Assembly: GCA_964059195.1 (NCBI GenBank) | Contig: CAXKWD010000003.1 | Coordinates: 14,986,606-15,050,605, forward strand | Direction of reading: 5' to 3' | Length of the DNA: 64,000 nucleotides | From: Ectobius pallidus | Lineage: Eukaryota; Arthropoda; Insecta; Blattodea; Ectobiidae | Shown here: one piece after another, positions 4,417 through 61,555 of the stretch | How positions within the stretch are numbered: position 1 is the stretch's first letter | Layout: every line of letters starts with the position of its first letter | The notes under the pieces: model-generated | Told to the model about the DNA's origin: nothing | Database searches by the model: none | The model's input: the letters and a program-made list of their open reading frames with translations, nothing else | Translations under genes and position numbers: made by a program

Positions 4417-5566
4417 TAGACTTCGGACTTTTAGGTCGTTAAAAATGCTGTTTTAGGTATCTAAAATAGGATCTAAAAACGGATCGAGGAAAGAGTTTGA
4501 AAAACCGAGGCCGAGTTTTTTTTCAATTTCCGATCCGTTATGCGCTTACGGCACGAGTATTGCATGCTATTTTTTGCACGATGATTATTTATATCAATTT
4601 AATTATATTAATTGTGATATTACCTGAAAATATTATGTATATACATTCTTGAAGATAGATGTTTATTTCAGAAAGTGATTCGCATGTGTTTGTTGTTATG
4701 GGAACCGAATATTTGTCATGGGGGCCCTTGTCCATAAAGCCTTGTATTATGATGTGCCGTAAGTAAATTCTTACCGCACATAGCAACAAGGTTGCGTGTG
4801 GGAATGTCAACTTACGATCCACGGCAACAACATTCGTAAGTACCACTAACTAGTTAAGTCGTGCAAAAAAATCGTCAAATAGTCTCTTATAAAATCGTTA
4901 AGTTGCTAACTTTCTGAAATATCTCAATTGCAATGCAGAATATTATATTTATTGAAGTCACCATTAATCAATAATCATGATAAAATACAGATATAGGCCT
5001 ATGGTACACAGAATTATATAGACCTATTACTAGGGCCTGTATTACTACCATAACAGTGAAAACCAAATCCCTGCGAGCAAAGGCTACGCACGCTAGCATT
5101 CAACCCTGTGTATCCCTCAGTGATTCAGAGAACTGCTCGTACGTTTTTTTTTTTTGTTTTTTGTTTGTTTGTTTGTTTGTTTTTGTTTTTTTTTTCTGGA
5201 TGTGGGAATCGGGAGAAAAACTCTACATTTTATTGGGAATTCCAATGAACTTTTCTACTGAAGACGAAACATTCCTTACTATTTAACCACGTCACAAATG
5301 TGACATGTACTGCACATTTCGAGCTAAAAATTTAGTACGAACTGAAAATAAATGCTATAATTTATAACAAAAAATAACTTATTTTGAACTTTAGACGAAA
5401 AACAAGCAAAAAGGCAATATTAGGCTCTAACGTAAAAATAGGCTCTTTTAGGTCCTATAAAAGTATCAGTTTTAGGCATAGTCACTTATGAAACATGCAT
5501 ATACAAGTTTTCGTCCATATATCACTTAAGGATTAAAATAGGTTGTTACCTGAAATCCGAAGTTTA
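4417..5566. mobile_element. hAT-type MITE, family TAGACTTCGGA, with nested repeat
   Basis: The left end is TAGACTTCGGACTTTTAGG and the right end reads the inverse, CCGAAGTTTA. An 8-bp target duplication flanks it: CTTATTAA at 4409-4416 and CTTATTAC at 5567-5574 (7 of 8 identical), fitting the hAT consensus nTnnnnAn. Subterminal iterations of TAGGTxCTAAAA occur at both ends. It is homologous along its length to 49260-49996 and 50480-51206, except for an insert at about 4480-4866. A T/G-rich tract lies at 5145-5192. No transposase is encoded, so it would need a hAT transposase in trans. Confidence 0.85.
4480..4866 (+). repeat. Hairpin-headed dispersed repeat (family Z), nested in the hAT MITE
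   Basis: Comparison with the sibling MITE at 50480-51206 shows foreign sequence from GGATCGAGG to CGTGCA, replacing about 16 bp of host. The head is a foldback (GGATCGAGGAAAGAG...GATCCGTTATGCGC). The body carries inverted TTGCACGA (about 4574) and TCGTGCAA (about 4859). Copies with the same body are at 18626-19125 and 59597-60025. A short minus-strand ORF (4846-4589) is shared with the 59.7-kb copy but has no recognisable domain. Superfamily unknown. Confidence 0.7.
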
Positions 5567-5589
5567 CTTATTACATAGGCCTAATACCC

Positions 5590-5700
5590 TCGGGGTACTT
5601 ACCGTATATTTCCGCAGATATAAGATTATAGTTGAATAATAAAAAAGGCCCCGAAAATTGGGGTTCGTTTTATAGGTAAGATAAAAATTAGATTGAAATT
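5590..5700 (+). repeat. Dispersed repeat with TACCGTATATTTCCGCAG head
   Basis: A head TACCGTATATTTCCGCAGAT is followed by an AAAAAAGGC...CCT/GGG hairpin and a TTTTATAGG/CTTATAGG segment. The same order occurs at 43190-43330. The head resembles the common mariner-type MITE end (CCGTATTTTCCCGCGTATAAGACG class), but I could not find the matching right end here. Probably a truncated copy. Confidence 0.5.
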
Positions 5701-6074
5701 TATATAAATTAAAAACATTACAAAATGATATATTCCGATCTCAAATTTATATTATCTTGATGCATTAAGATGTTAGGTATCTTTTGGGGGCAAACGTAAG
5801 CCGCGAAATAACGCCAATTTCGTAAATAAAACCAAAAAGGTCATAGTCAGCGAAATAAAACCTATTTTTGGTATTTTTAAAATTGTTCATTATATACCGG
5901 TACGTGTATCACATGACTCAGTCACAATGCGTACATCGTTCTCTTCCATTGTGGCACGACTGTGCTCAGCGACGCCATTTTGAAAAAAAAGGAGATCGAG
6001 GAAGCTTTGTTCCGATAAGGGTAGCCAACAGTTAGTTAAAAACTGCAGTTATTCTGCTCTGACTTCTATTACCC
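5701..6074. other. No feature recognised
   Basis: AT-rich sequence with no ORF or terminal repeat that I can support. Confidence 0.4.
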
Positions 6075-6597
6075 ACCCTAAGGATTATAATACTGTGACG
6101 GTTGGCAACATTTTTGCGATCAACCAGAAAACTGAGATGTCTATCCGTCTATCTGTCCGTGCGTCTGTACACGCGATAACTCGAATACGCTTTATCGGAT
6201 TTTCATGAAACTTGGTGTACGCATTTATAACGTTCATGGGACGAAGCCTATTGATTTTGAGCCAATCGGTTGACTGTTACCGGAGTAATGCTTAATTTAC
6301 TGCCTATTTTATGGTAATATATTAGAAAGAATTTATCAAATGCAAATCAGTTCTCGTGATAACAATGTTTTACAGTGTTCATATACGGCTTTGGAAGTTG
6401 CATTACCGTTTTCTTCGACAAATAACACTACCCACACATTCCTCCACATATGCTTATCAAACTAGACCTTTGTTCTTCCTTAAGCCCTGCTTAATGAATC
6501 GATCTGGAGCTTAACTCGGAAATCGATTAAAAATAACTTATCTTCTGCATATCATAATTGCAATTATCACTGATTAAACAAAAGCATTCTGGCACTT
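6075..6597 (+). mobile_element. Dispersed element, family T (TGCCAGAATG ends)
   Basis: This is the longest of several copies of one family: an arm rich in CTGTCCGT, then CGCGATAACTC and CTTTATCGGATTTTCATG, a middle with TATTAGAAAG and CATATACGGCTTTGG, and the right end GCATTCTGGCAC (about 6583-6595). Other copies are at 19683-19897, 20998-21436, 21467-22660, 25486-25830, 48717-48815 and 56640-57080. Several end with TGCCAGAATG or its inverse, so the family probably has short inverted termini. Peptides rich in T, R, D and Q read from the CTGTCTGTC tract are artefacts. Superfamily not assigned. Confidence 0.7.
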
Positions 6598-7224
6598 TGT
6601 TACCTTATACCTTATAATATTTTTATCACGAAAATGATAGAATTTACAATTTAATGAGAACATAATGAGTAGCCTATTTGTATTGTCAAAATCAATTAAA
6701 TTTTAGTTTATTACAAGACGTATATAAAAATATCTTTACATTACGTTAGTTACATGTATTTTACATGTAAAATTACTCGCCCAACCAAGCTTAGTTCCTT
6801 TATTCACTCATTTCAAAATACCTGGATATTTTACTTCTGACTAAGACCCTTCTTACAGTAATGTACTACTCAGATTACTGGGATTCTTTAATCATACTAA
6901 AGTAGAACACACAACACACCATTAAAAATCTGGTTGATGGGAGAAAACATCACTAAGAGGAAGTAAGAAAAAAGCATTTCCACCAGCGATATAAGAAGTA
7001 GCGGAATCAATGTCAATAAATCTAGCTTTTCCTCTTTCCTCTCCACCACATTTCTAAACCGCCCACCACTACCAGCACTACATTTTTGTTTGCTAGTACA
7101 AAAAACTTCTTAGACATCTTAAAAAGTTTCTTCGTCGATACCTGGCTTCCAGTGGCGGAAACATGCGGGCGCCTGGAGAAAAAAATATGGCTCAGTGGTA
7201 AAATTAGAGTCTTATTTTATACTT
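6598..7224. other. No feature recognised
   Basis: AT-rich sequence. The small ORF beginning at 7086 runs straight into the TAG microsatellite and looks non-coding. Confidence 0.4.
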
Positions 7225-7320: not shown

Positions 7321-8314
7321 CAGGGTGTTAATTAGGGATGGGTCCTCGATACTTTCGATACCTCGATACTCTCGATACTCACATGGTATCGGCATCGAAC
7401 GATACTTCAGAAAACTCGCTCGATACTTTTTCGATACTTTTGTAATTCTGCAATTAAGTGATTATGCTAGTATTTTTTAACAAAAACTTGTAAGTGGACT
7501 GTTTAAAAAACTAATTTTAGTTTTAATGTAGAGTTTAAAAATAATTATAGGCTACTGATGATATTAAATTTTGTCTCATTAAATATGCAGACTTAACTAA
7601 TTTAGTTGGTATTACACAGTTCTCTCAAATTTAAATTTTTAATGTACCTATTTATTGAAACTGGAAATGTTGAAGGTATCGAGTATCGAAGTAAGTTATC
7701 GAGTATCGAGGAAAAAAATAATGTATCGATATCGAGTATCGAGTATCGAGAAAATCTGGTATCGACCCATCCCTAGTGTTAATAAATAACACCGAAATAT
7801 TCTACCTGTATATAGAGGGGACTTAGACAAGCAACTTTTATTAGGAGATTTTTGCTGTATGACGTAAAATGTGTATGCTACAGGTCATAAAAGTCATTAT
7901 AATTTGGTGCTCATAAATAAAAAATTACGCGAAATAGGGTTAAAATGTTCATTAAATTGACTTCATGCATTCTTAGTGATCGATAAAAAAATTCATTCTT
8001 AGTCATTCATCAACAGCTGTATCATAATTTAGTGTTTACATAATCTGCAAAATTTACAGACTAATCACATGACTGGTCGCCACTGCATTAGTATTTTTTT
8101 TTATTCATAATACTGACTACAGTGTTAACAACGAAGTTCCATTGTTTTGCATTTTCTCTAATGTTAGAAGTCAGTGGCGGCCATGCCCTGGGAGATTTCA
8201 TGCTGTAACAGGAAAAATTGAATCCATAGATCAAAAATCTCCTAATAAAAGTTGCTTGTCTATGTTCCCTCTATACACAGGTAAAATATTTCGATGTTAT
8301 TCATGAACACCCTG
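7321..8314. mobile_element. Tc1/mariner-like MITE (CAGGGTGTT ends, TA target) interrupted by a hAT MITE
   Basis: The left end CAGGGTGTTAAT continues after the nested element as AAATAACACCGAAATATT and ACCTGTATATAGAGG. The right end is the inverse, CCTCTATACACAGG...AATATTTCGATG...AACACCCTG. TA flanks both ends (7319-7320 and 8315-8316). Near both ends the words TCTCCTAATAAAAGTTGC or their inverse add to a long imperfect inverted repeat. Without the nested hAT MITE and one TSD copy the element is about 540 bp. There is no transposase ORF. Confidence 0.8.
7333..7775. mobile_element. hAT MITE (TAGGGATGGG ends, CGATAC-rich), nested
   Basis: Ends are TAGGGATGGGTCCTCGATAC and the inverse CGACCCATCCCTA. 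An exact 8-bp target duplication, GTGTTAAT, lies at 7325-7332 and 7776-7783 and fits nTnnnnAn. Both subterminal regions are built of repeated TATCGA/TCGATA words. A second, inverted copy is at 53826-54513. There is no ORF of significance; the frames across CGATACTCG repeats give arginine/serine/tyrosine-rich artefacts. Confidence 0.9.
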
Positions 8315-8365: not shown

Positions 8366-9108
8366 CAGGGCCCGGATTCTAATGACATGTCATCTTTTTA
8401 TTGATGCGGCATAGACATTGCCAACTTGTGGATAAATCCTAATCATGGCCTCTAGATTAAAGAAATGTATTTTTATTCGGTCATTTTTTGTCATGTTATG
8501 CAATTTTATACTTTTAGGGCATTTATTTCGATTTTACGTCATTATTTTGTCATTTTCGTGGCATTTGCTTCCTTATTTAGTCATTTTCATGTATTTACTA
8601 TGAGTGTATTAACTTTTTTTCGTCGCTAGCGGTGCTATCTTTGAAGTATTGTTTGTTTAATGCAAGAAGGAAAAATTCGGCGATGAAGTGTTGACATGTC
8701 TCAGTCGGAAGTGAGAATCAAAGAAACGCCAAAACGTTGTATTATATTACTAGTCTGCCACCTGCTTGGATTTGAGAGTGCAAACTACTGTTTACCTTCA
8801 ATAAACAACAATATAATCCGGCAGACCACAAAAGGATGTGCCGAATTTTGACCAATGCCAGTATAAATTTCCGTGAGAAAAGAACATTCACAACATTATA
8901 GTTACTGGGTCTCAATGGCCTGTATAGGATTCACTTTACTTCACTTTTTACAATTAGGCCTATGTACAAACTACTCTATAACTTTGTGTGTACAATAATA
9001 ATTTTTTACACCGGTCATTTTTTATAATTAAGTAATTTTCTTTAAAATTTAGGGTCATTTTATAGGTCATTTTTCAAACAATTTTAGGTCATCAGAATCC
9101 GGGCCCTG
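8366..9108. mobile_element. hAT MITE (CAGGGCCCGGATTCT ends)
   Basis: Terminal inverted repeats are CAGGGCCCGGATTCTAATGA and the inverse, AGAATCCGGGCCCTG. Target duplication is CTAATGAC (8358-8365) against CTAATGAT (9109-9116), 7 of 8. Subterminal TCATTTT words, several as GGTCATTTT, are iterated on both sides. The length is 743 bp with no ORF. The GGGCCCGGAT core is shared with the hAT elements at 13587-15894 and 28042-29295. Confidence 0.88.
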
Positions 9109-9149
9109 CTAATGATATATTAGGCTACTGAATAGGCTACGTAATGCCT

Positions 9150-10426: not shown

Positions 10427-10726
10427 TAATACTTTAATAATAATAACAATAATAATAATAATATTTATTTAACCATTAAGCATACAATGCAATAGGTTTC
10501 ATCAGCTGGTCATTAAATAGAATCTATCTCCAAATATTCCTGTACAGGATAAAAGTTTAGTTCATTGATAAAATTTTTAACTCTGTAGCCTATTTAAAAT
10601 TATTAAAATTGTCAATTCGTCTTAAGTATAAAGGTAATTTATTATAAAGTTTCACACCAAAAATATAAGTGGGAATCCAGAGATTTCTGCAAGTGGAATT
10701 TTGGAGGCACAAAATTATTTCTTCAC
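10427..10726 (-). mobile_element. Probable LINE 3' fragment inserted in the SINE head
   Basis: An (ATA/TAA)n-rich stretch is followed by TTTATTTAACCATTAAGC and AATGCAATAGG. This resembles the order at 1904-1960, where the I-like LINE tail is followed by TTTATTAAACAACATG and CCATTGCAATG. Its two flanks together hold the split SINE-B head. No protein similarity is visible, so the LINE call is inference. Confidence 0.4.
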
Positions 10727-11674: not shown

Positions 11675-13520
11675 TCCCTTATAAATTAAATAGGCCTAGT
11701 CAAGAAAATTTCCAATACACTGTGTTTAGAGCAGAAGTTTGAAACGCCACTGGTATATCATGATGGAATTGAGTTAGTAAGTTTGGGTTATATCTTTGCC
11801 AGGCAGAGGAGCTGAGAACGTGGAAAAGCTTTTGATTTGTGGCTCAGGATTAGTGCAGCAAGAAAAATAACATGGCGGCACAACTGAACCCATCCATTCC
11901 GTCGGCATGGCAACGCATGAATTTAAATAAAAGTATCAGAATTCCTACACGCTTACACGCGAATTTAACAGGCAGTGGGACCTGTGTAAAGCTGTTAGTC
12001 ATGTCAGTTCTACCTTTAGTGAGGTAGAAGTGGATCATATTTATGATATTTATATAACAGTAGGCCTACTAACTACAGTCCTCACGAAGTAGATAATGCT
12101 AAAATAAATGTAAAATCTATTTTTCGTTTTGTGATCAAGTCCACGGTTGAAGAGACAAATAAATAAAATAAAATAAATTCTGAAAATAATATGCAATAAA
12201 TTGTAGAAGTAGTCAATGTAGAGCATGCCAGATTACAAGGCTACAGAAGAATTCATTGATGAGAAAAAAAATGAAACCACCTATTTTTCAGCATCGAAAG
12301 CTGTATGTACCCCTTAAAAAAAACTATTTTTCGGCTCTAAAAAAACCGAGCATAACCTAAAGCGTAACTCTATATAACTTTATGCCATTTGGGCGCACGG
12401 AAAGATGTAGTAGACGCTATATTTAAAGTAGTGTGCCCTTCAAACTCTCACTTTATGCAAAGTTTAATAGCTTTTTGTTTTCAATTTCAATTATCATGTT
12501 ATTTAGATCAATTCAAACTCTATAGTCTATTCTCCCACAAATTTTAGGAAACTACTTTGAAACTTTTTCTCAATGTATGCCCCTACTTCATAATCAGTAC
12601 AACAAATTCACAAATGTGTTTTCTTGTATATGCCTTAGTTTGGCCTATTTTTAAAAATGGAGATAGACTTAAATTTTTAATTTAAAAGTAATTTCCCATA
12701 TAGAAGCTGAAATACGAAACTAAAATTTGAAACTGCAATTTATGTTGAGGTCTTAATTGCATCAAATTTTAAGTTTAGGCCTACAGGACAAATACTTTGG
12801 AAATTGGAGTTACTGCTCTGAAATTTTTCACAGTGTGTTTAACAATGAGTGCAACAAAATTAGTAATACGATTTTTGTACAGGCCTTAGTTATTTTCATT
12901 TTCATATGTAAAATATTTTTTAAAGCAGAAAGTATAAACATCTGTCATCCATTAAGTTGCTAATCAGAATGGCAACTGCGCATAGCCAGATCGCTCTTTC
13001 GCTGGCAATGAAAACAAACCCACTTCGTAATAAATACACATATTTTGACGTTACCATGTTTCGTGGAGTATGTTGTCCACGAATTAATTTTGTATTTAAT
13101 TTCTTCAAAAACTACGAAGATTATAGGAAAACCGGAAAAAATGTATTCCTTAATATAGTAGAGCCACACCCTAATACATGAGAACCCAGCTGCCTTTACG
13201 AGAATGTCTGTCTTAACAACGACAGGCAAGTTGTCACGAAACGTCACGGAAGGTCGTGTGACAGACTGCAATTTGTGCTGAAAGAACGATGACAATTCTG
13301 ATTTAACTGTAATAAAGTATTCATGAAAGCCCTAGCAAGAACAATCCAACTGTAGTTATAAACTCTTTATATCGTGAAATATGTAATAGGCCAGTTCATA
13401 TTTTAAATTTAGATGAAGTGAAAACGACGTAATATAGTTGTTGTAACCCGCTCCGCTCTGCCCTCCCCTCCCCCCCCAAACCCCCAGTAAGTTTCACGGG
13501 AAAGACTTTTTTTTTTAACT
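11675..13520. other. No gene recognised
   Basis: About 1.8 kb of AT-rich DNA. The longest frame (13295-12960, minus, 111 codons) overlaps others on both strands and has no domain I recognise. A C-rich run lies at 13457-13488. No element boundaries were found. Confidence 0.4.
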
Positions 13521-13521
13521 G

Positions 13522-14512
13522 ACACCGATCGGAGATAGAGTCTGTGTATTTAATCTGCCGTTTGACCTATTACGTTTAGCTATAATTAGAACCCTGATTT
13601 ATATTCATAATCAAATACTAAAATATGCATGAATAATTAAAAAATATGCACCATAATATGCAAAAACTAATTAACAAAAAATCAAATAAACCATTTTTGG
13701 GGGCATAATCTTACTACGTCTGTCAGTGAAGAAGGTTTTATAAGACTTCTTTTTATGAACTAACACCGCATTCGAGATAAGACTCCATGTATTTAGACTG
13801 CCGTTTGGCCTATTACGTAAAGCTATAATTAGAGCCCGGATTTGTATGCATAATCAAATAATAAAATATGCATGCAGGTACGCATGAATAATTTTAAAAA
13901 TATACACAATAATATGCAAAAACAAATTAATAAAAAATCAAATAAACCATTTTTGGGGGATAATTTTGCTACTTCTGTCAGTGAAGAAGGTTTTATACGA
14001 CTTTTTTTAATGAACTAACACCGCATTCGAGATAGACTCCATGTATTTAGACTGCCGTTTGGCCTATTACGTTTAGCTATAATTAGAGCCCGGATTTATA
14101 TGCATAATCAAATAATAAATTATGCATGCAAATATGCATGAATAATTTTAAAAATATTCACCATAATATGCAAAACAAATTAACAAAAAATCAAATAAAC
14201 CATTTTTGAGGGATAGCCTATTCTTACTACATCTGTCAGAGAAGAAGGTTTTATACGACTTTTTTTTATGAACTAACACCGCATTCGAGATAGACTCCAT
14301 GTATTTAGACTGCCGTTTCGCCTATTACGTTTAGCTATAATTAGAGCCCGGATTTGTATGCATAATCAAATAATAAAATATGTATGCAAATATTCGTGGA
14401 TGATTTTAAAAATATGCACCGTAATATGCAAAAACAAATTAACAAAAAACCAAATAAGCCATTTTTGGGGGATAATCTTACTACGTCTGTCAGTGAAGAA
14501 GGTTTTATACAA
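13522..14512 (+). repeat. Tandem array: four units of about 241-258 bp carrying hAT left ends
   Basis: Units begin at ACACCG 13522, 13763, 14018 and 14276. Each holds CTGCCGTTTGRCC, then TAGCTATAAT, then the inverted-repeat start TAGARCCC(G/T)GATTT and a TATGCAT-rich subterminal tract, ending with GTCAGTGAAGAAGG. The unit therefore joins flanking DNA, the 8-bp target word GCTATAAT and the left end of the hAT element that finishes at 15894. The later units are most alike. No coding potential. Confidence 0.85.
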
Positions 14513-15894
14513 TGAAAATGCCCTTTCTACATCGCATGATGTCACATGTGCATGTGAAAAACACCACAACTCTTCTTGAGTGAATCCTGAAAACACTGTG
14601 GTACATAGTTTATGCGCAACGTAGACCCATCCGGGAATGTTTTGTTTGAGTTTTTTTTCTAAGAAACTCCGAGGCTGCACATTATTCAGTTTCAGCTTCA
14701 GGGGTTCTAGAGTACATATCCACCCACCCATCCATCTCTATAAAAGGCTTTGTCCTGACTGACTGACTGAATGACTGACTGACTGACTGACTGACAGGAA
14801 TCAACGTAGACCCTAAACTATAACAGGTAGAGACTTAGAATTTTGACTGTACCTTCGTTTCATAATGTAGGTGCTCACTAAGAAAGGAATTTACAAAATT
14901 TTGATTTTAAATGCCAAAAATTAATTGTTTTTGAGAAAACTTAGGCTAATCCCTTTTTACACAGAATTATAAAACCCCAATCACAGAATATATTGTTGCC
15001 AAATGGTATCAGATGGGCTTGGAAAAAACAAATGAAATGCACTTTTGACAAATAAGAGAAGTTATCAAAATAATTCATGTTATAAATAAATATTACAGAA
15101 TGAAATTCACTAAAATAATGGAATCACATAACTTTCTCTACCCTGGACATAGAGAAAACAAAACGAGGTATGGTAATGTGTATATTATTATATTATATCG
15201 CAGGTATTTGGAGAGAAAAGTATAAAAGTGATAATGCTTTCTGTTTAATTTCATCCCCAAAACGATTTTATGGTAACATAAGAGTGGGAAATTTCCCGCC
15301 TCGATATTACAATTTTATGTTACAGGAATTTCTGTTTCTTCTTATTTGAACCCCTACCAGGCTTGCTGTGCAAGCGATGGGATGCAAAATTCTACATCTT
15401 CTATGAGCCATAAAAAAACTATATCAAGCGTTTTCTGAGGGAATAGTTTGAGTGTAATAAGTCGTTCTTCCTATTTCAAATTATAAATGCCTATATAAGG
15501 ACCTAGAATTTAAAATTTAAAATCCTTCATAAGTTAATTTCCAATTACAAAATACAAAACCCGGGCGACACCGGGTCTTTTAAGCTAGTTTATAAATAAA
15601 TAAATACATAAATAAAAAATATATATAGATTGGTTGCACAGATTTTATTAAGTACCAGTAATTATTAACTATCTAAAGGGGAAAATATAATTTAATACCA
15701 CATTTAAGAGTAAAACATGCACTTTTTTCATTTAAAACTTAAAATATGCATTTTCCTCTGGAATATAGCCTACATTTATGCAATAACAATTCCGGTCAAA
15801 TTATCTGGAAAAGTTTTACTTACAAAATATATCATTTACGCATATTTTTAATATGTAAAAAGGAACATACCATTTGCATACATTCCGGGCTCTA
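13587..15894. mobile_element. hAT element (TAGAGCCCGGATT ends) with amplified left end and nested Helitron
   Basis: The right end (GCATACATTCCGGGCTCTA, ending at 15894) is the inverse of the left ends at 13587, 13830, 14084 and 14342. The left ends are each preceded by GCTATAAT, and the right end is followed by TCTATAAT at 15895-15902 (7 of 8). TATGCA-type words fill both subterminal regions. The Helitron at 14735-15588 accounts for much of the interior. No transposase is present. Confidence 0.8.
14735..15588 (+). mobile_element. Non-autonomous Helitron, type 2, nested in hAT element
   Basis: It starts A|TCTCTATAAAAGGCTTTG with seven TGAC-type units and ends with the hairpin CCGGGCGACACCGG, then TCTTTTAAG-CTAG|T. 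The first about 300 bp match type 1; the 3' half differs and contains the conserved tract TTTCATCCCCAAAACG...TTTTATGGTAAC. Length is 854 bp. A frame across that tract resembles ones in other type-2 copies but is broken here. Mobilisation would need an autonomous Helitron. Confidence 0.88.
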
Positions 15895-16157: not shown

Positions 16158-16814
16158 GAATTTTTCAGTCTGACTCAACCTTTCCAGAAATTTGGTGGTT
16201 TCATTTTGAATATTGTTGAGTATTTTGTTAGTTTTGGGATAATGCATCATATTTGGTTGATATTAAATTATTTGTGCCTATTTTTAATGCAACATTTTAA
16301 CGGCATATTTCTGACAGATTTTACATATTGTCAATATATCTGTTATTCCAAACATTTACACCACATTGTCGACTGTAAAGTAATTGACAGAACTAAGATA
16401 TGTGACAGGGATTTAGTATTGCCTTTGGCAATTGCAGTACGCAGACTTTATTTGTACAGTTTTTAAACAAATTCTGTTGGCGAGTTTTAGGATGTAATAT
16501 TATCAAGATGATTTCTCGTTTAAAATTTTGGAAATTGCTACACTATGTCACACATAATATAACAACCGTCACCACATAAGAAAAAAAAAGTCAGTATTTA
16601 GGTAGGCTAACTCACTTGCCAGTTCACACGAAACGATATTAATATTCATTACGAGATGCAAGATCCTTGAATGAGGGTTCGTTTTAATAGTTTCATTTCG
16701 AATCTGTATGCCCAAATGGCAGCATAAGATTCGTTTAGTTACACTTACTACATAAAATAATATAACTAAAAATAAAACTAAAAATAAAATTACTTAATGC
16801 CAGGCAAAATAAAA

Positions 16815-17732: not shown

Positions 17733-18372
17733 GACTATTCCACTCATACGCCGCGTGTTTGATATTACCAATTATAATGTTTAGCAATTCCTCGAATATA
17801 GAAGAATCACGATCGTTTATCTTATAAAATGCTTGCTATCAATATAAGGATGGGATTTTATCCGATAAAATGGTCAGCTCGTTACGGGACACGTAAGCAT
17901 CAATGTGCAGTGATTAATATGTCATACGCTGCCATTAAACAGCACGAAAGCAGATTATTTTATACAAAGCAGCTTGTTTGGAAAATGAAATAATATAAAT
18001 GTACTTTGATTAAAAACACAATTTTGATTCGGTGCAAGCCGTGTGTTTCTATTCTGTTCTGCTATTAGCTTAGGCCTACCTGAATTAAGTGAACTATGTA
18101 TTGTATGCACCATTGGTAGCACTGGTCACAAAATGGTAACTCGAATCGATTCATGGATGGTTGATTCACAGTAGGCCGCGATCTCGCAACTGTTAGTTTT
18201 GTTTTTATACAACAAAGCACGAAAGTAATTATTATTTGTATAATGCGATGGTTTTTTATTCATGGAATAGTCTTAATAAATCCAACTCGAGTTGACGAGT
18301 TTCATCAGTCGCGAATCTATCGATAAACTCGTAAACTCTCGTGGAATTACCTATGATAAAATCACCAGGAAT
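17733..18372 (+). repeat. Dispersed repeat P with inverted termini and hairpin tail
   Basis: It starts GACTATTCCACTCATACGCC and contains the inverse (TTCATGGAATAGTC) at 18262-18275, then a tail with CCAACTCGAGTTGACGAG and, inverted, AAACTCGTAAACTCTCG. Copies are at 41325-41985 (plus) and 63770-64000 (minus, running off the window). Length is about 640 bp. No ORF. The inverted ends suggest a MITE whose 3' flank was carried along; superfamily not assigned. Confidence 0.65.
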
Positions 18373-18625
18373 CATCCGGTATGTCATCATTTGTTAAAAT
18401 TCAAGATATGTACAAAATTATAATTTACAATAGGCCTATTTAGAAATTGTTAAATGTCCTGAAGAAAAGAATAGGCGACAATTAAATTGGCAAGACTTAA
18501 TTTCTCACGCAATTTATAATCCCCTGACGGACTGCTAAGTAAACTGTTATAGCAATGACGTTGACGTCGTGGGATTACCTTTGATAAAGTAATACTAAAT
18601 ACTAAACCAACCAATAGTAGCCTAT

Positions 18626-19125
18626 ATTGCGATACAAGGGCCGTAAGCGGTGCATAAGGATCGAGGAAAGAGTTTGAAAAAACGAGGCGCTTGAGCCGAG
18701 TTTTTTCAATTTTCGAGATCCGTTATGCTCTTACGGCACGAATATTGCATGCTATTTTTTGCACGATGATTATTTATATCAATTTAATTATATTAATAGA
18801 GATAGGCTATTACCTGAAAATATTATGTATATAGGCCTACACTATTGAAGATAGATGTTTATTTCAGAAAGTGATTCGCATGTGTTTGTTGTTATGAGAA
18901 CCGAACATTTGTCCTGTTAAAGTCGCCACAAACTGGGGGGCCTTGGTCCATAAAGGCTTGTATTATGATTTTACTTACGGCACAGTGTGCTTTTTGTAAT
19001 TTTTACCGCACGGAAATTTGTTTTGTTTCCTTAGCAACAAGATTGCATGCGGGAATGTCAAGTTACGATCCACGGTAACAATATTCGTAAGCAGGCCTAC
19101 CACTAATTAGTTACGTCGTGCAAAA
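18626..19125 (+). repeat. Hairpin-headed dispersed repeat Z, full copy
   Basis: After TATTGCGATACAAG the sequence folds on itself: GGGCCGTAAGCG, GCATAAGGATCGAGG and GAAAAAACGAGGC on one arm pair with GCCGAGTTTTTTC, GAGATCCGTTATGC and CTTACGGCAC on the other (18640-18738). The body matches 4560-4866 and 59690-60025. Two internal steps differ by TAGGCTA (18803) and TAGGCCTA (18832) insertions relative to those copies. It ends at GTCGTGCAAAAA before an AAT microsatellite (19135-19171). Confidence 0.72.
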
Positions 19126-19173: not shown

Positions 19174-19682
19174 GAAAGTAAAATCAAAGTAATTTCTCTT
19201 CATCCGCACGAATAATCGTAGGAGTAACATTTATAAAACTATGACATCTGCATAAATGTGTCAGGACCTTACTTAACTAACTATCATGGCTGCTTGGATC
19301 AATGCACGGGATGAAAAATCTTTTTCTTGGCCGACTGTGATAGACAGGTGGGAACCCGGTATAAATAGCTCTTGAGAATACGTCATGAGGCGGAACTGGT
19401 ATATGTCTCTTTTCCATGAGCAAAAACTGCTCTCGAGCTATTTAATACAAGGTCAAGACATGTGTGCATCCGTTTTTATTATGCAACCCAAATGCATAAG
19501 TCCGTGGCAAAAGGCGCTAAAACCAATAGCAAATCTTAAGCTGGCCAAACGAAAATGTTAATTTCGCATTAATCAATTTTAGTCATTAGCCCCAAAAGCA
19601 AGCACGTGCTTAAGGTAGCCTATCAAGAGAAGGGAGGGCACCAGACAAATTTTTGAATAGCCAAATTTACCAATTAAATTAT
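19172..19682. other. No gene recognised
   Basis: Unremarkable AT-rich sequence with no repeat similarity noticed. Confidence 0.4.
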
Positions 19683-20997: not shown

Positions 20998-21436
20998 ACT
21001 GCCAGAATGCTTTTGGTTAATCAGTGATAGGGCCTAATTGCAATTAGGCTATGATATGCAGAAGATAAGTTATTTTTGTAATCGATTTCCCAGATCGATT
21101 CATTAAGCAGGGATTACGGAAGAACAAAGATTTAGTTTGATAAGCGTATGTGAAGGAATATGTGGGTAGTGTTATTTGTCAAAGCTAACTGTATTGCAAC
21201 TTCCAAAGCCGTATATGAACACTGTAAAACAATATGTTGCCATGAGAACCGATTTGCCTTTGATAAATTCTTTCTAATATATTGCCATATACCCAAAATA
21301 GGCACTAAATTGGGCATTACTCCTGTATCGGTCAATCGATTTGATCCAATATAAATAGGCTTCTTCCCATGGTTGTTGAACAGACAGACATTTTCCCGTC
21401 CGCCACAAATCTCAAATTACCATTCTGGCACTTAAT
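20998..21436 (-). mobile_element. Family T element, minus strand, near complete
   Basis: This copy is bounded by TGCCAGAATGC on the left and GCATTCTGGCA-type sequence (ACCATTCTGGCACTT) on the right, supporting short inverted ends. It matches 6200-6597 inverted. Two steps carry inserted TAGGGCCTA (about 21028) and TAGGCTA (21045-21051) relative to the 6.5-kb copy. Frames on both strands are shadows. Confidence 0.7.
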
Positions 21437-46804: not shown

Positions 46805-48050
46805 GAATGCCACATCTGCTTATGCAGATGACGTTTGCTTGTTGGGCGATGACTAGACCTGGGAATTTAGGCTCTAAAAATTAGTTTTAGGCACCTAAAA
46901 TAGACTTTTAAAACAAGTAAATAGGGTTTTAAAAGAAAAAATAGGCACTTAAAATATGCTTTAAAAATATGTAAATAGATAGAGTAATAGACTTTAAAAT
47001 ATTATAATATACACTTAAACTGTAACATGGTCTTTTTTACTGCAAGAAACGTGGTATAACAGCAAAATTAGGCATCATGAACTATATTCACTTAAACAGA
47101 TGTTCTTTCACTGGTGACTTGACATAGTAGTCCTTCCTCCTTAATCCACCCCCTCCCCTGTCGGTCAGCGTTCCTTTAGCGACAATTGTTTGGAATAATC
47201 AAATTTCTGTGAAAAACCCACCTCTGCTGTTCTGCTTTTTATTTAGGGATGTATATTATAAGATTGTAAAAATTACAGAAGTTGAATTTATTTTAAATGT
47301 ACAAAATAGGCATTTCAGGCACTAAAATAGTAAATTAGGTTCTAAAGGTCCAAAAAGGCAATTTAGGGCACTATAAAACTATCTAATTGTAAGTGATTTA
47401 TCATGAAAGTCCACATATTTAAAAATGTTCATGTTATTTCATAAGGAACAAAACAGGCATTCGCCTTAAAATCCCAGGTCTAGCGATGACATATACACAA
47501 TCGAGAGAAATGCAGAAAGTATTTTCTATGCCTGCAGGAATGTTGGATTGGAAATTAATACAGAAAAAAACTAAGTAGGCCTATATGGTCATGAAACGTC
47601 AAAATAATGCGCTAAAAAATATTAGAATAGTCGGTAGCCTAAATCGAACAAGTGGAGAAATTCAAATATCTGGGAGCAATAATTACAGACAGAAATAATA
47701 TTAAGGCAGAAGTTAAGTGTAGACTCAAATGTGGAAATGCCTGCTTTTATGCAGTTCAGAAACTCTTTTATCTTCTCGTCTTCTGTCGAGAAATCTAAAT
47801 CTAAAAACTTATAAGACAATTATCCTACCGGTTGTATTATCTGGATGTGAGACATGGTCGCTTACTCTTCGGGAAGAACATAATTTGAGAGTGTTCGAAA
47901 ACAGGGGGCTTGGAAAATATTTGGACCTAAGAGAGATGAAAATGGGGACTGGAGAAAACTACATAACGACGAGCTTCATAACCTGTACTGATGAGATTTA
48001 TGCATTATTGAGCTCGGCTAGTCTTTATCTTTCGTAGACTAAAAGTGCCA
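46805..48050 (+). pseudogene. RTE-like LINE reverse transcriptase fragment, split by a hAT MITE
   Basis: The catalytic YADDVCLLGDD motif of the reverse transcriptase is at about 46819-46853. After the MITE (46854-47482) and one target duplication the same frame continues with an ERNAESIFYACRNVGLEIN-type thumb region, then KFKYLGAIITDRNN near 47660 and LPVVLSGCETWSL with LREEHNLRVFENR at 47823-47906. Frameshifts and stops occur between these blocks; one stop is made by a TAGGCCTA at 47576. The enzyme would copy LINE RNA at a nicked target. 5' and 3' ends are missing and the copy is dead. Confidence 0.85.
46854..47482. mobile_element. hAT MITE (TAGACCTGGGA ends) inside the LINE
   Basis: Ends TAGACCTGGGAATTTAGG and the inverse AAAATCCCAGGTCTA; exact 8-bp duplication GCGATGAC (46846-46853, 47483-47490). 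Subterminal CTAAAAATAG/GGCACTTAAAATA words repeat at both ends. 629 bp, no ORF. A truncated inverted sibling is at 51215-51625. Confidence 0.9.
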
Positions 48051-48815: not shown

Positions 48816-48921
48816 CAGACTGATCAAAATTCATTTTTATAGCTTCAGGGATTAGGTTCGACGAAGATGAATCAGACAGTCAGTCAGGACATGCTCTTTC
48901 TTATATATAGGCCTAGCCTAC

Positions 48922-50479: not shown

Positions 50480-51206
50480 TAGACTTCGGACTTTTAGGTC
50501 GCTAAAAATACTGTTTTAGGTGCCTAAAATAGGATCTAAAAATTGGAAAATAGGTTCTAAAAATGGTAAAATAGTCTCTTATAAAATCGTTAAGTTGCCA
50601 ATTTTCTGAAATATATCAATTGCAATGCAGAATATTATATGTATTGAAGTCACCATTAATCAATAATCATGATAAAACACAGATATAGGCCTATGGTACA
50701 CAGAATTATATAGACCTATTACTAGGGCCTGTATTACTACCGTAACAGTGAAAACCTAAGCACGCTAGCATATTCAACCCCTTATATCCCTCAGTGATTC
50801 AGAGAACTACTTTTTTTGTTGTTGTTTTTTGTTTTGTTTTTGTTTGTTTGTTACTGGATGTGGGAGTCTTTTCTTGGGAATTCCAAGGAATTTTTCTACT
50901 GAAGACGAAACATTCCTTACTATTTAACCACGTCACAAACGTGTCATATACTGCACATTCCGAGATAAAAATTTAGTACGAACTGAAAATAAATGCTAGA
51001 TTTATAACAAAAAATAACTTATTTTGAACTTTAGAGGAAAAACAAGCAAAAAGGCAATATTAGGCTCTAACGTAAAAATAGGGTGTTTTAGGTCCTTTAA
51101 AAGTATCAGTTTTAGGCATAGTTACGTATGAAACATGCATATACAAGTTTTTGTCCATATATCACTTAAGGATTAAAATAGGTTTTTACCTAAAATCCGA
51201 AGTCTA
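50480..51206. mobile_element. hAT MITE family TAGACTTCGGA, copy 3
   Basis: Ends TAGACTTCGGACTTTTAGG and AAAATCCGAAGTCTA. Exact duplication GTTATAAC at 50472-50479 and 51207-51214, the same 8-mer as copy 2. 727 bp. A T/G tract lies at 50811-50853. Confidence 0.92.
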
Positions 51207-51625: not shown

Positions 51626-52426
51626 TCTGTTAAGAATATTTACTTACGCTTAATCGTCAGGACACAACTAATGGTTTGACAACACATTTTAAAAATTTGT
51701 AAGTTTATGCAACATATAAGACAATATAATTTTAATGGTTTTATATTTTTAAATTGAATGCATTCAGCAATGTACTATTTAAGGTGTAAATGTGTACTAT
51801 ATGAATAGCATAATATATACTACCATATATTTTAGGACAATAGCTAAACATTTACAAGTCAGCTTCATCAGCTCCATAACATTATTGAAGAATATGTAAC
51901 AGTATGTATGAAATTGTATACATGAGTGCTATATATGTAAGTATTCAAATAATATTACACTATTGTGGAATGAAGGGCTAAGTAAACATGGCACACATTG
52001 AACTTTGGTTAAATTTATTTTGTGGTCAGGTGGACAATTCTCTTTATAATAAATATTTACCACAAACGGAAAAAGAATGAAATTTATCAATACCTTAATG
52101 GATGTGTTTAAGATACTGCTACGCCCCATATAGGCTAATAAGCATATTATAGTATGGTCGTAAAAATAGATTTAAATGGCAAAGGGGCACTGAAAAAGAA
52201 AAGAAACAAAATTATCACCAGGGACAGGAAGAATATACCAACGGGAAAACTAGAATGAGATTGAAAGAACGTTTGAAGAATGACAGGTATATTAGCCAAA
52301 CGATAAAAATTCATTCAATTTCCCATGTAAATTAAAAACCTGTGTCGGACTGCAAAGAAAACAGGCATTGAAAAGATGTTAAAAAATTCATTTTTCTGTA
52401 ACTTTTTATTTTATTTTTATTATTTC
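51626..52426. other. No gene recognised
   Basis: AT-rich, no repeats noticed. Confidence 0.4.
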
Positions 52427-52752
52427 AGCTGTGTTTATACTCCTTTTAGCTTCGATGTTGTCAGGCGTTCGGGATCTGTGTCTAAAATATAGTAGGCTAT
52501 GGAACTATTGCTTGTCAATTGTTTCTACTGTCGGTTTATTTAATGGAGTAAATTTCAACTGATATTAATTTAAATGGATATGATACAGGATGAAATGGTG
52601 AGGATGATTCATGGTATGTAAAAATCCAATTCGGCTTTTGCCTTTACGACTGGGGGAAACCATGAAAAATCCCATGTCAAATTGGTCGGCCACGGGATTT
52701 GAACCTGGGACCTCCCGAATGCGAGTCTACCTCGGCCACCTCGCTCGGTTTT
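52427..52752 (-). mobile_element. tRNA-derived SINE family D, minus strand, complete head
   Basis: Minus strand: ACCGAGCGAGGTGGCCGAGG (A box), GAGGTCCCAGGTTCAAATCC (B box), GACTGGGGGAAACC inverse and GTAAAGGCAAAAGCC body, ending near GGAGTATAAACACAGCTG. It matches 26368-26640. About 325 bp. Confidence 0.82.
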
Positions 52753-53640: not shown

Positions 53641-53825
53641 TTTCACATCAGATTTTCTTTTTATTTGTGTAAATTGGAGAACAAAGATGACTGTGTACAA
53701 TTGAAGAGCGTTTTTTCAAAGCGCACAAATTTTGAGAAAATGAGATATACATTTATGTGAAAGGTAGGCTACGCTCGTTAATATAAGGCACTCTGAGGGA
53801 TTTATATATATATATATTTATTTAT

Positions 53826-54513
53826 TAGGGATGGGTCGATACCAGAATTTCTCGATACTCGATACCGATACATGATTTTTTCCTCGATACTCGATACCGT
53901 CAACATTTCCAGTTTCAATAAATAGGTAGGCCTACATTAAAAATTAATAGTTGAGAGAACTGTGTAATACCAACAAAATTAATTAAATGTGCATATCTAA
54001 TGAGACAACGTTTAATATCATCAGTAGCCTATAATTATTTTTAAACTCTACATTAAAACTAAAATTAGTTTTTGAAACAGTCCACTTACAAATTTTTGTT
54101 CAAAAATCACAACTGGGGTTTGTACAGTCAGCTTGCTTGTTGGTTGTTATTGAAACGTTTGACAGGAAACGAAACAATTAAAAATCTCTTCTGTTTGGAT
54201 TTTAAAAGTCGGAAAGTCCTTATTTATTACTAGACAAAAGTCACAGAGTGGTTTTCTCCATTTCAAGGAGAAATAGAAGTATTTACTACATTTAGTAGAC
54301 CGTTAATCTAATAGGCTACTTAAAGCAGAAAGAGATACCGCATTTCCTTAAATTGCAGAATTACCAAAGTATCGAAAAAGTACCGATCGAGTTTTCTGAA
54401 GTAGGCCTATCGCTCGATGCCGATACCATGCAAGTATCGAGAGTATCGAGGTATCGAAAGTATCGAGGTATCGAAAGTATCGAGGTATCGAAAGTATCGA
54501 GGACCCATCCCTA
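53826..54513. mobile_element. hAT MITE (TAGGGATGGG ends), inverted copy
   Basis: Ends TAGGGATGGGTCGATACCAG and the inverse GGACCCATCCCTA; repeated TCGAAAGTA/TATCGAGG words at the right. It is homologous to 7333-7775 in opposite orientation. It lies in TA-rich sequence and no clear 8-bp duplication remains. Two plain TA steps of the other copy read TAGGCCTA here (53927, 54402). Confidence 0.85.
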
Positions 54514-56639: not shown

Positions 56640-57080
56640 ACAAAGTGCCAAAATGTTTTTTTTTTTAAATAAGTGATAACTGCAATTATGATATGCAGAA
56701 AAAAGCTATAATTGTAATCGATTTCCGAGTCAAGCTCGATTCATTAGGCAGGGCATACGGAAGAACGAAGGTCTAGTTTGATAAGCATATGTGAAGGAAT
56801 ATGTGGGTAGTGTTATTTGTCAAAGCTAACTGTATTTCAACTTCCAAAGCCGTATATGTACACTCTAAAACAATTTGTTGTCATGAAAACTGATTTGCAC
56901 TTGATTCTTACTACTATATTACCATAAAATAGGCACTAAATTGGGATTTACTCCAGTAGCCTACTCAAATACGCTTTATCGGATTTTCATTAAACGTGGT
57001 ATACGCATTTATAACGTCGATGTGAATAAGCCTATTGATTTTGGACCAACTCGATTGATCGATACTGGAGTTATGCCCAC
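56640..57080. mobile_element. Family T element, internally inverted copy
   Basis: 56645-56955 matches the 3' half of family T on the minus strand (AGTGCCAAAATG, GATTCATTAGGCAGGGC, GTGAAGGAATATGTGGG). 56972-57080 matches its 5' half on the plus strand (CAAATACGCTTTATCGG, GTATACGCATTTATAACG). The two halves meet near 56960 at a TAGCCTA. Confidence 0.65.
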
Positions 57081-57899
57081 TAATATTGTCTGAAAAAAAT
57101 TAACAAGCTCTGTTTTCTTAATTTACTTTAATTTTATTAAATTTAGTTTAATTTACTGTAATATCGCTACAATGTTTAAAATACACAGATAAATCATATA
57201 TAGGCCTAATGTGACATTTATGCAAAGGACTTTTTTCAACTAAAATTACCGAAAATATTTCACCCCTGTTTATCAAAGTTTATAGTCGAGTGGTTGCATT
57301 ATTTCATTTGCCTGTACAACGTGTAAAACCTTTTTGCACCGGTCCATCGACTTGTTGGAGTTTGAAATGGCCACAAAGATGAGGTTGACAGTTGTTGTGG
57401 TTAACCATCTACCAGCTGGTCAGATCATGAGGTTCTGTGGTCTTGATTGAATGTGATATTGTACGTGACGTGAGTTATCTTCCATTGTGACAATGTTTTA
57501 TCAGTTCTTAACACCTCGTTGCAGCCCTCACAGGAGGCGTGAAAGGAAAGAATATGACCCAGCGGGTGAAATTTAATGTCCTTTTTTTATGAGGAGTTAT
57601 AAAATGGATGGAAATTGATTTTTCTAGGGGCGAACGGGTTCTGATGTAAAAAACGAAACTTCCTCTACCGAATTAAAAGATTTGGGTCATAGTATACTAT
57701 ATTATAATTCATAATATTTATTTTATATATTATAGGCCTATATTTTTAGTATTATATTAATCATATGATAGATGTGTTTATTGAGAAATCAAGTTCCCTT
57801 GGAATAACTTACACTATAATATTCAATATTGTCATTTAGCAATAGACATAAACACAAAGTAGACCTATAGTACAAGGTTTGAGATAAATTTATAAAAAA
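57081..57899. other. No gene recognised
   Basis: No domain or repeat; TAGGCCTA at 57201 and 57733. Confidence 0.4.
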
Positions 57900-59596: not shown

Positions 59597-60025
59597 ATTG
59601 CGATACAAGTGCCTTAAGGCACGTTTACGGGTCGGGTTTTCAAGTTTTCGAGACCCGTAAATGCCTTTACGGCCCGTGTGTTGCATGCTATTTTTTGCAC
59701 GATGATTATTTATATCAATTTAATTATATTAATTGTGATATTACCTGAAAATATTATGTAAATACATTCTTGAAAATAGATGTTTATTTCAGAAAGTGAT
59801 TCGCATGTGTTTGTTGTTATGGGAACCGAATATTTGTCCTGGGGGCCGTGCCCATAAAGGCTTGTATTATGAAGTGTATCGTAATGAATTATGACGTAGC
59901 GCTTGGACCGTAAGTAATTTAACCTCATCGCAACCGTCCTTAGTAACAAGACTGTGTGGGAATGTCGACTTACGATCCATGTAAACAACGTTCGTAAGTA
60001 CCACTTACTAGCTAAGGAGTGCAAA
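59597..60025 (+). repeat. Hairpin-headed dispersed repeat Z, third copy
   Basis: After TTGCGATACAAG, GTGCCTTAAGGCACG and TTTACGGGTC pair with GACCCGTAAATGCC and TTTACGGCCC (59610-59680). The stem matches in position the 18.6-kb copy but with different bases on both arms. The body through GAGTGCAAAAAA is conserved. The 104-codon minus frame is not supported. Confidence 0.7.
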
Positions 60026-60234
60026 AAATAATATTATTTATAAGCTTATCTTATGTAATTGTGAAAACATAAGTTCTCTTAAGTGAGTCGCTTACTTTCA
60101 TATTTGTATCACAGGCTTACATGTTTAAAACATATATCTATCAAATGAGATTTCATTTGTTTTTATAACGGCCTTAGGAAATTTGTTGATTCTGAAGAAA
60201 AAACAAGTCACATAAGTTACGTGCTCTTTGCAAT

Positions 60235-60540
60235 ATGGTCTCTTGTTCTATATCAGAATGTGAAGTGAGAAAAATGTATTGGCCATGCTTAAAGTAAAGA
60301 AAGGTAAGAGAGTACATTAAGAAGATTTTATTTGGATTGTGTATCCCTCGGGGATGCGGTGTGATGTGATAACGAATTTCTCTTCATTTTTACAACCAAT
60401 TTACATGAAGAGAACGTCATATATAATAATTATATTATAACTTACTAAGAGGCTAACTTTTATTTGGGCAGAGGAAGTCATTTGAATTTCACATAATATT
60501 TTTTTTACATTAATAACTAATACATATTACTGATACATAT
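60235..60540 (+). repeat. Dispersed repeat W
   Basis: It matches 53325-53640 and in part 9150-9245: TTCTATATCAGAATGTGAAG, ATTGGCCATGCTTAAAG, CTTTTATTTGGGCAGAGG. Confidence 0.6.
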
Positions 60541-60731
60541 TCGATATTTCCAATATTATCCCACGTAATATTTTGCATTCAGAAAGACTAAATAAAACCT
60601 AATGTAGACTAATCTAAAAACAAATGGCAGTGACATTCTCATTGGCCGATATCATGCCATTGTCAAGCCGGTGTTACAATATCCAACATTAATAGGGTAT
60701 TCAATTACCGATATATTATGATATACTATAA

Positions 60732-61555
60732 CTAGCTTAAAAGGCCCGGCGTCGTCCGGGTTTTGTATTTTGTAAATTCAAAATTAACTTATGAAGGGCT
60801 TTCGATTTTCAAATTCTAGGTCCTTATAGGCTATAGCCTTCGTATTAAAAATCTGAAATGAAGAAGAACGACTTATCACACTCAAACTATTTCCTCAGAA
60901 AACGCTTGATATAGCTTTTTATGGCTCATAGAGGATGTGGAACTTTGCATCCCATCGTTTCTACACACCAAGCCTAGTAGGCGTTCAAATAAGAAGAAAC
61001 AGATAGGCCTAATTCGGTAACATAAAATTGTATTATCTTTGCGGGATATTTTATTTCTCACTATCATGTTACCATACAACCGTTTCGGGGATGAAATTAA
61101 AAAGTAATTCAATGCGATATAATAATATACATATTACCATACCTCGTAGGGTATTCTCTATGTCCAGGGTAGAGAAAGTTATGTGACTGCATCACATTGT
61201 GCATTATTTTAGTAGATTTCATCTTCAATATTTATTTACAGCAATTAATTATATTGATAGATTCTCTAATTTATCAAAGTGCCGTATCATTTATTTCCAA
61301 ACCTACCTGAGATCACTGTCAACACTACACGGAATTTGATTTGGATTTTATAATTCTGTGTAAAAAGGTATTAAGTATTTTAAAAATATTTGATTTTTTC
61401 ATTTAAATCAGAATTTTTCAAAACCATTTCTTAGTGAGTACTTACATTATGAAACGAAGGTACTGTCAAAATTCCAAGTCTCTAATTTGATTCTGTCAGT
61501 TATACGTTCATTCAGTCGATCAGGACAAAGCCTATTATAATTATATAGAGAGAGA
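60732..61555 (-). mobile_element. Non-autonomous Helitron, type 2, minus strand
   Basis: Minus strand: A|TCTCTCTATATAATTATAAT start; CCCGG-ACGACG-CCGGG hairpin, CCTTTTAAG, CTAG|T end. 824 bp. TAGGCCTA (61004) and a TAGGCTATAGCC double word (60830) are additions relative to siblings. Confidence 0.88.

Follow-up and report, generated by a model that had tools for sequence, protein, structure and literature searches.

What process has set three or four G/C bases between two copies of the dinucleotide TA, and how often has it acted? The question is raised by a repeat-rich stretch of the Ectobius pallidus genome (2,124,618,226 bases in 410 contigs), a 64-kb window at C3:14986606-15050605, in which the palindromic 8-mer TAGGCCTA and the 7-mers TAGGCTA and TAGCCTA recur. 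The original prediction, made from the letters of the window, held that a plain TA in one repeat copy is matched by TA-GGC-TA, TA-GCC-TA or TA-GGCC-TA in another, as would be left either by excision of a TA-targeting transposon with GGC...GCC ends or by a TA-specific micro-insertion process. Our analysis indicated that these micro-insertions are real, specific, genome-wide and directional. Chance matches apart, the sites are probably germline excision footprints of a cut-and-paste element of the Tc1/mariner type.

The window contained 31 copies of TAGGCCTA, close to the predicted figure of about 30 and including all eleven positions named beforehand, together with 20 copies of TAGGCTA and 17 of TAGCCTA. 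The predicted chance expectation of about one 8-mer was borne out, as 0.65 copies were expected under an order-1 and 1.94 under an order-3 Markov model, and 100 dinucleotide shuffles of the window contained 0.66 on average and 3 at most. TAGGCCTA headed the ranking of 8-mer excesses in the window, and the two 7-mers together reached 37 occurrences against 7.0 in the shuffles (maximum 13). The excess recurred outside the window, where 20 stretches totalling 200 kb held 39 8-mers (order-3 expectation, 3.0) and 58 7-mers (expectation, 18.4). Throughout the 2.12-Gb genome, 520,230 copies of TAGGCCTA were counted, against 14,707 of the reversed string, which is 35-fold rarer. Extrapolation from the 200-kb sample put the number of 7-mers at a level similar to the roughly half million 8-mers, giving about 0.9 million footprints genome-wide when added to the counted 8-mers. 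The density of TAGGCCTA was about twofold higher in the window (0.48 per kb) than on average over the genome (0.245 per kb).

Enrichment confined to a few high-copy families had been named as grounds for abandoning the prediction. Among the 68 window sites, however, flanks common by descent were found in two pairs only (4994/50686 and 7548/54025), and the excess outside the window was as described above. The sites were scattered singly, with 9 gaps shorter than 100 bp against 7.1 expected from random draws weighted by flank class (P 0.28; 66 sites, two duplicates dropped). Bursts of footprints, suggested by 9121/9133, by 18803/18832 and by four footprints in a single 530-bp repeat copy, were set aside because this clustering was not significant.

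The direction of change was read from paralogous repeat copies. Unless noted otherwise, the analyses below cover a 304-kb set consisting of the window and 24 stretches placed by hand at round numbers; the set is not strictly random, and 19 of the first 20 stretches come from the initial 9.1 Mb of a contig. Polarity was tabulated from pairwise BLAST alignments in which 7 of 10 bases had to match on each side. In a first pass a copy was called empty if two letters were left at the site; in a second pass the letters themselves were read and places within 40 bp merged, which left the totals unchanged. Low-complexity alignments were dropped from the self-alignment, rate, indel-content, polarity and long-insertion analyses. 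The inverted duplicate pair L138:2285/L138:4313 and the pair 4994/50686 are counted twice in these tables.

A paralogue could be aligned at 51 of 185 sites, and two or more could be classified at 27. Among these 27, the insertion was present in a single copy at 17, where up to 16 paralogues read TA; six were filled throughout and carry no polarity information; three were mixed, mostly empty with one or two further filled copies; and one showed the pattern expected of deletion. Plain TA was read in 148 of the 154 empty copies that retained two letters. In a Helitron-like family of ten copies (alignment A1), the TAGGCTA at 44057 and that at 14942 each occurred in one copy, and in a second family of six copies (alignment A2) the footprint at 24638 was likewise found once. 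One copy of a third family carried four insertions (18618, 18803, 18832 and a decayed one at 19092); the last three were missing from two relatives, and the relative aligned at 18618 lacked that insertion as well. At each of the ten sites that the prediction had listed, at least one window paralogue read plain TA. The claim that the event is always a duplication of TA around three or four G/C bases held for the great majority of empty copies and failed at three places: five aligned relatives of 61004 read CAGAAATT and have no TA, 60827 represents two adjacent events or a single complex one, and five G/C bases were added at 21028.

An ancestral long form reduced to plain TA by deletion, the outcome that would have overturned the prediction, would account for 34811 (one empty and five filled copies). 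It is scarcely credible as a general explanation in view of the 17 sites filled in a single copy and the three mostly empty ones. The plain TA is thus ancestral wherever polarity can be read, 34811 apart. Some insertions are nevertheless older than the amplification of the repeat family that carries them. The strong palindrome and its high count might also suggest a selected motif, such as a binding site, or an effect of base composition. This is very improbable, since gapped alignments yielded insertions of 5 or 6 bp rather than point changes, the reversed string is far rarer, and the insertions lay at TA across many unrelated repeat families.

The inserted content was as constrained as its position. 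Self-alignment of the window repeats placed 8 of 25 distinct 5-bp indel sites in the TAGGC class and 4 of 19 6-bp sites in the TAGGCC class. Among words with only G/C bases between two TAs, GGCC was found 75 times against 5.2 expected, GGC/GCC 110 times against 31 and GGGCC/GGCCC 8 times against 1.9. The added length is therefore three or four nucleotides (nt) and weakly five, the 1-, 2- and 6-nt forms being at background, as were C, CC, GC, CG and CCC. CCGG (13 against 2.9) and CCG (32 against 20) also exceeded expectation, which may be due to the repeat word CCGGTACC. The compared repeats yielded 159 indels of five or six bases, of which 29 contained TAGGC or TAGGCC in some rotation; 28 of these 29 lay at a duplicated TA, the remaining one being a second alignment of 24638. 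TA-duplicating 5-bp indels comprised 18 with GGC/GCC, followed by CAG with 3, and 10 of the 13 TA-duplicating 6-bp indels contained GGCC. Two further candidate words were set aside: TACCATA/TATGGTA (26 against 11.9), whose repeat context is common to many copies, and TAGAGCCTA (10 against 0.5), which is at least partly a word of the Helitron-like family.

Not every TA was used equally. After two duplicates with identical flanks had been dropped, 183 sites divided into 97 with purine-TA-pyrimidine flanks (RTAY), 77 mixed and 9 of the opposite type (YTAR), compared with 24.4, 52.8 and 22.9% for all TAs (P 2e-20) and with 30, 49 and 21% for control words (TA-NN-TA and TACCGGTA). In the window alone, YTAR flanked 1 of 68 sites. 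The preference is symmetric on the two sides of the TA, which is what an enzyme acting on this dinucleotide would leave. The insect telomere repeat is TTAGG, of which TAGG and CCTA are parts, and head-to-head TTAGG/CCTAA units added at breaks could produce a similar palindrome. A telomeric origin is nonetheless extremely improbable: TTAGGCCTAA occurred 0 times in the window, the Y-TA-R context it requires was nearly excluded (1 of 74 8-mers), the GGC and GCC 7-mers are not telomeric, and the flank pattern is symmetric.

The sites of the window and related features are given below, with the strand as (.). Lines without a remark rest on the occurrence of the word in the window sequence, and about 7 of the 37 7-mers listed are expected by chance, as judged from the shuffles.

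4994..5001 (.) TAGGCCTA; filled in 5/5 classified paralogues, including 50686
5576..5583 (.) TAGGCCTA
6670..6676 (.) TAGCCTA
7548..7554 (.) TAGGCTA; paralogue 54025 also filled
8955..8962 (.) TAGGCCTA; paralogues 2 TA, 0 filled
9121..9127 (.) TAGGCTA
9133..9139 (.) TAGGCTA
10586..10592 (.) TAGCCTA
11691..11698 (.) TAGGCCTA
12061..12068 (.) TAGGCCTA
12776..12783 (.) TAGGCCTA
14214..14220 (.) TAGCCTA; one paralogue TA, two others with 3 and 4 letters aligned
14942..14948 (.) TAGGCTA; paralogues 16 TA, 0 filled; alignment A1
15766..15772 (.) TAGCCTA
16603..16609 (.) TAGGCTA
18071..18078 (.) TAGGCCTA; paralogues 1 empty, 0 filled
18431..18438 (.) TAGGCCTA
18618..18624 (.) TAGCCTA; missing in paralogue 59580-60035
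18803..18809 (.) TAGGCTA; paralogues 3 TA, 0 filled
18832..18839 (.) TAGGCCTA; paralogues 3 TA, 0 filled
19092..19099 (.) CAGGCCTA, read as decayed footprint; 6-bp insertion missing in two paralogues
19616..19622 (.) TAGCCTA
20263..20269 (.) TAGGCTA; aligned paralogues with 3 letters left, unclassified
21028..21036 (.) TAGGGCCTA, 5-nt variant; 7-bp insertion missing in two paralogues
21045..21051 (.) TAGGCTA; paralogues 8 TA, 1 TG, 0 filled, 2 unclassified
21711..21717 (.) TAGGCTA
22703..22710 (.) TAGGCCTA
22774..22781 (.) TAGGCCTA
24638..24645 (.) TAGGCCTA; paralogues 8 TA, 0 filled, 2 unclassified; alignment A2
26332..26339 (.) TAGGCCTA
26776..26783 (.) TAAGCCTA, possibly a decayed footprint; 6-bp TA-duplicating insertion
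28021..28028 (.) TAGGCCTA
28226..28233 (.) TAGGCCTA
28742..28749 (.) TAGGCCTA
29862..29868 (.) TAGCCTA
29943..29950 (.) TAGGCCTA
29973..29979 (.) TAGGCTA; 1 filled paralogue
32299..32306 (.) TAGGCCTA
33791..33798 (.) TAGGCCTA; paralogues 1 empty, 0 filled
34414..34420 (.) TAGCCTA; paralogues 1 empty, 0 filled
34811..34818 (.) TAGGCCTA; paralogues 1 TA, 5 filled; sole site with deletion pattern
36019..36025 (.) TAGGCTA
38282..38288 (.) TAGCCTA
38346..38352 (.) TAGCCTA
38855..38862 (.) TAGGCCTA
41547..41553 (.) TAGGCTA; paralogues 2 TA, 0 filled, 1 unclassified
42302..42308 (.) TAGGCTA
43347..43353 (.) TAGGCTA
43597..43603 (.) TACAGTA, footprint-like CAG type of another source, for comparison; 5-bp TACAG insertion in 1/10 A1 copies
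44057..44063 (.) TAGGCTA; paralogues 14 TA, 1 TG, 0 filled, 2 unclassified; alignment A1
44283..44289 (.) TAGCCTA; one paralogue, unclassified
45436..45443 (.) TAGGCCTA
45675..45682 (.) TAGGCCTA; within open frame 45524-45976
47576..47583 (.) TAGGCCTA; one paralogue, unclassified
47635..47641 (.) TAGCCTA; one paralogue, unclassified
48908..48920 (.) TAGGCCTAGCCTA, two overlapping footprints
50686..50693 (.) TAGGCCTA; filled in 5/5 classified paralogues
52131..52137 (.) TAGGCTA
52493..52499 (.) TAGGCTA
53765..53771 (.) TAGGCTA
53927..53934 (.) TAGGCCTA; paralogues 1 empty, 0 filled
54025..54031 (.) TAGCCTA; paralogue 7548 also filled
54312..54318 (.) TAGGCTA
54402..54409 (.) TAGGCCTA; paralogues 1 empty, 0 filled
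56957..56963 (.) TAGCCTA
57201..57208 (.) TAGGCCTA
57733..57740 (.) TAGGCCTA
60827..60833 (.) TAGGCTA, part of double or complex insertion; from repeat alignment
61004..61011 (.) TAGGCCTA, exception with five aligned relatives without TA; from repeat alignment
63450..63456 (.) TAGCCTA; single aligned paralogue reads TAGCCCTA
63731..63737 (.) TAGCCTA

How could a single source give all three words? A cut-and-paste element would insert at TA, preferably R-TA-Y, duplicate it and later leave, and at excision each side would keep the three end bases of the element, GGC, as a 3' overhang. If the overhangs anneal over their whole length, GGC:GGC with a central G:G mismatch, TAGGCTA or TAGCCTA would result; if they pair by the terminal GC:GC and each side has one base filled in, the product would be TAGGCCTA. 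One 3-nt overhang in two registers would thus suffice for all three forms. About equal numbers of 8-mers and 7-mers would be predicted, and their excess over order-3 expectation in the 304-kb set was 70 and 79, respectively. Overhangs of 2 nt (GG) or 4 nt (GGCC) with trimming would be alternatives. The analogous form for CAG ends was observed in alignment A1, where one of ten copies carried a TACAG insertion. The window also contains, at 7317-8318, an element about 1 kb long that is flanked by TA and has CAGGGTGTT at its ends; we take it to be mariner-like. According to passages of one source, cleavage by the Sleeping Beauty (SB) and mariner transposases falls three bases within the element and leaves 3-nt 3' overhangs, to which the footprints formed by non-homologous end joining are equal (PMC7827188), and a passage of another gives Tc1/mariner footprints as 2-4 bp (PMC7913693). 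In the present genome the constant content of the added bases is what was observed; that they derive from element ends, and that such an element existed, is what we infer.

Several results weigh against an excised element as the source. Within 40-4000 bp, no TA-GGC...GCC-TA element was recognised in 328-362 kb of window and sampled genome. The 328-kb set, which includes 8 loci picked by motif, contained 50 TAGG...CCTA pairs (at least 12 of 16 matching), which were assessed by eye and six of them by letters. The 362-kb set, with the same number of motif-picked loci and 10 loci picked by DDE_3 matches, yielded 72 filtered TA-flanked pairs, three of them starting with GGC. Of these, the first was a pair of repeat copies in inverted orientation that also matched in their outer flanks, the second used a word present 8-11 times in the sample, and the similarity of the third faded after 10 bases. 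Apart from hAT ends and repeat families, the half-sites TAGGC and TAGG were not followed by any common sequence while their flanks differed. Inside the alignments, which rarely bridge gaps of such length, a duplicated TA was never seen around an insertion of 8-150 bp with GG...CC ends. At least 150 matches to PF13358 (DDE_3) were obtained, with 150 of 6,152 candidates scored, and the one family with readable ends had TACCTTTTCAACTT at 6 of 10 loci (L153-L162), not GGC. As none was recognised in the 304-kb set, the genome is expected to hold fewer than about 21,000 copies that could be recognised in the range of 40-4000 bp (95%). Set against about 0.9 million footprints, this makes a ratio of about 40:1 or more between footprints and recognisable elements. 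Known mariner families, by comparison, leave many visible copies, and GGC ends are not among the Tc1/mariner ends known to us. Nor does a single common source predict a difference in flank preference between the words, yet the RTAY share was 45% in 8-mers and 59% in 7-mers (P 0.01). Membership in Tc1/mariner is not established, since the element ends were sought and not found. A source element, if it exists at all, may combine rarity with high activity, may have been lost or may lie outside the assembly. Excision of a TA-targeting element remains the best reading for the added G/C bases, the duplicated TA and the ancestral plain TA; the transposon part of the prediction is inferred, as no intact TA-GGC...GCC-TA element was recognised in the sets above.

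Two side observations concern the DDE_3 matches. The family with TACCTTTTCAACTT ends has, inside those ends, repeats spaced by 21 bp and multiples. Seven matches (C1:94605783, C7:128850037 and five more) had the same score and the same types of stop codon (one TGA, one TAA), and are perhaps a recently spread non-autonomous family.

If no transposon is resident, a dedicated or escaped TA-specific activity might long have inserted GGC, GCC or GGCC at R-TA-Y in the germline of this lineage, a proposal that we consider unlikely while giving it real weight. It would account for the 29 indels of this content noted above and for the roughly half million 8-mer palindromes. In a narrower form, rather unlikely in our judgement, a TA-specific cutting activity such as a domesticated transposase would join its cuts with constant addition of GGC or GGCC. 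This would fit the failure to recognise an element or long remnant, the very narrow product spectrum and the single, not significantly clustered sites (9 short gaps against 7.1, P 0.28). On the other hand, inverted-repeat ends explain the palindrome and both 7-mer orientations for free, and an enzyme that places a constant 3-4-nt sequence at TA is not known to us. Should there be no element, sequence-specific micro-insertion would constitute a novel class of mutation.

A real element could also be missing from the assembly, having acted in a hit-and-run manner from a virus or from extrachromosomal or germline-restricted DNA, or having been removed from the soma. The very many footprints beside no recognised resident copies favour this improbable explanation. 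Against it stand footprints shared between paralogues and decayed forms, as at 19092; words with one mismatch numbered 129, compared with 54 in the reversed controls and with 75 perfect words. Many scars must therefore be inherited and old, and somatic removal alone is insufficient. The process is not only recent, as some scars predate family amplification and many have decayed; the abundance of one-mismatch words suggests that many footprints are old, and both steady arrival and an old burst are compatible with it.

Is such a number of footprints too large for excision? In non-redundant repeat pairs, 7 footprints were found beside 1,058 substitutions in 9,653 aligned bases, or about one per 150 substitutions. 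With a mutation rate of about 3e-9, this would correspond to about 0.04 events per haploid genome per generation, a modest rate for an active transposon. The objection that the density is too high for ordinary transposition is accordingly weak.

Other elements were noted in the window. The Helitron-like family (TATATATAAAAGGCTTTGTCC ... GCGGGCGAAGCCGCGGGCACATGCTAGT), with variable TGAC repeats, occurs at 11075-11709, 21913-22549, 43373-43973 and elsewhere. An element with long inverted repeats at 45418-46277 surrounds the open frame 45524-45976, which has no Pfam match and looks like the end of a mariner transposase. On the minus strand, 2020-2926 is a remnant resembling a non-LTR retrotransposon with an RNase H domain; its open frame 2366-2926 matched RNase H (PF00075), with a Periplaneta americana protein as best match (56% identity), from which we infer that the DNA comes from a cockroach or close relative. 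Rfam marked 16085-16155 on the plus strand as tRNA-like (33.7 bits), and ARAGORN found no tRNA there.

Beyond this genome, two TAGGCCTA within 30 bp were found in at least 120 stretches of viral contigs, most of them phage-like with long open frames, and two repeat probes matched no contigs of other organisms. The prediction had known of no description of such micro-insertions at TA, and literature searches covering titles, abstract starts and passages, in part aimed at neighbouring topics, likewise gave none. The 8-mer string occurs in 182 papers, and among the matches listed none dealt with such insertions, judged by title and abstract start. As an anecdote, a Blattella germanica primer given in a passage of one paper contains GTAGGCCTAT (PMC7650587).

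Excision footprints are usually studied singly after a transposon hop. The present genome seems to preserve in legible form what, by extrapolation, may be a million excisions, with target preference, repair outcome and relative age recorded in each footprint. Such a record would provide a molecular tally of transposition over the lifetime of a lineage and would let the joining of overhangs in the germline be viewed directly. It would also serve as a warning that a genome may owe much to a hit-and-run element, as in the 10 of 13 six-base TA-duplicating indels, and yet offer repeat finders almost no copies of it.

Which known system does the source resemble most? The hAT-like elements of the window with TAGGGCCCGG ends have similar tip letters and differ in their 8-bp target duplication, whereas the footprints duplicate only the 2-bp TA; hAT elements were rejected as the source for this reason, and their footprints would not be TA-specific. 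Such hAT-like elements, with TAGGGCCCGGATT/CAGGGCCCGGATT ends, lie at 28042-29295, with the 8-bp target duplication GTTATAAA, and at 8366-9108. piggyBac, which targets TTAA and excises precisely, was rejected as well, TTAA flanks being depleted (1 against 7.7 in the window and 3 against 10.5 in the 200 kb) and a footprint being present. Stowaway-type miniature inverted-repeat transposable elements (MITEs) persist as abundant copies, whereas scars alone were observed in this genome. They are similar in that, in the part of the source available, Stowaway MITEs, moved by mariner-like transposases, have a 2-bp target duplication and footprints derived from element ends, while Tourist/PIF elements generally excise precisely (PMC4561436). 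PIF/Harbinger and ISL2EU (PHIS) elements include members with GG-starting ends, according to a passage on Pangu, and have TWA and AT as targets (PMC4482050). They were rejected because the sites described here lie at TA with R-TA-Y flanks, which does not agree with those targets. The closest likeness is to Tc1/mariner (IS630-Tc1-mariner, e.g. Sleeping Beauty), from which the present case differs in that the element was not found and in scale, a single genome carrying 8-mer scars to the number of about half a million. Tc1/mariner footprints, as far as the sources available in part describe them, consist of a TA duplicated around a few element-end bases (2-4 nt), and here too the target was a duplicated TA, the content was constant and within 2-4 nt, and the plain TA was ancestral.

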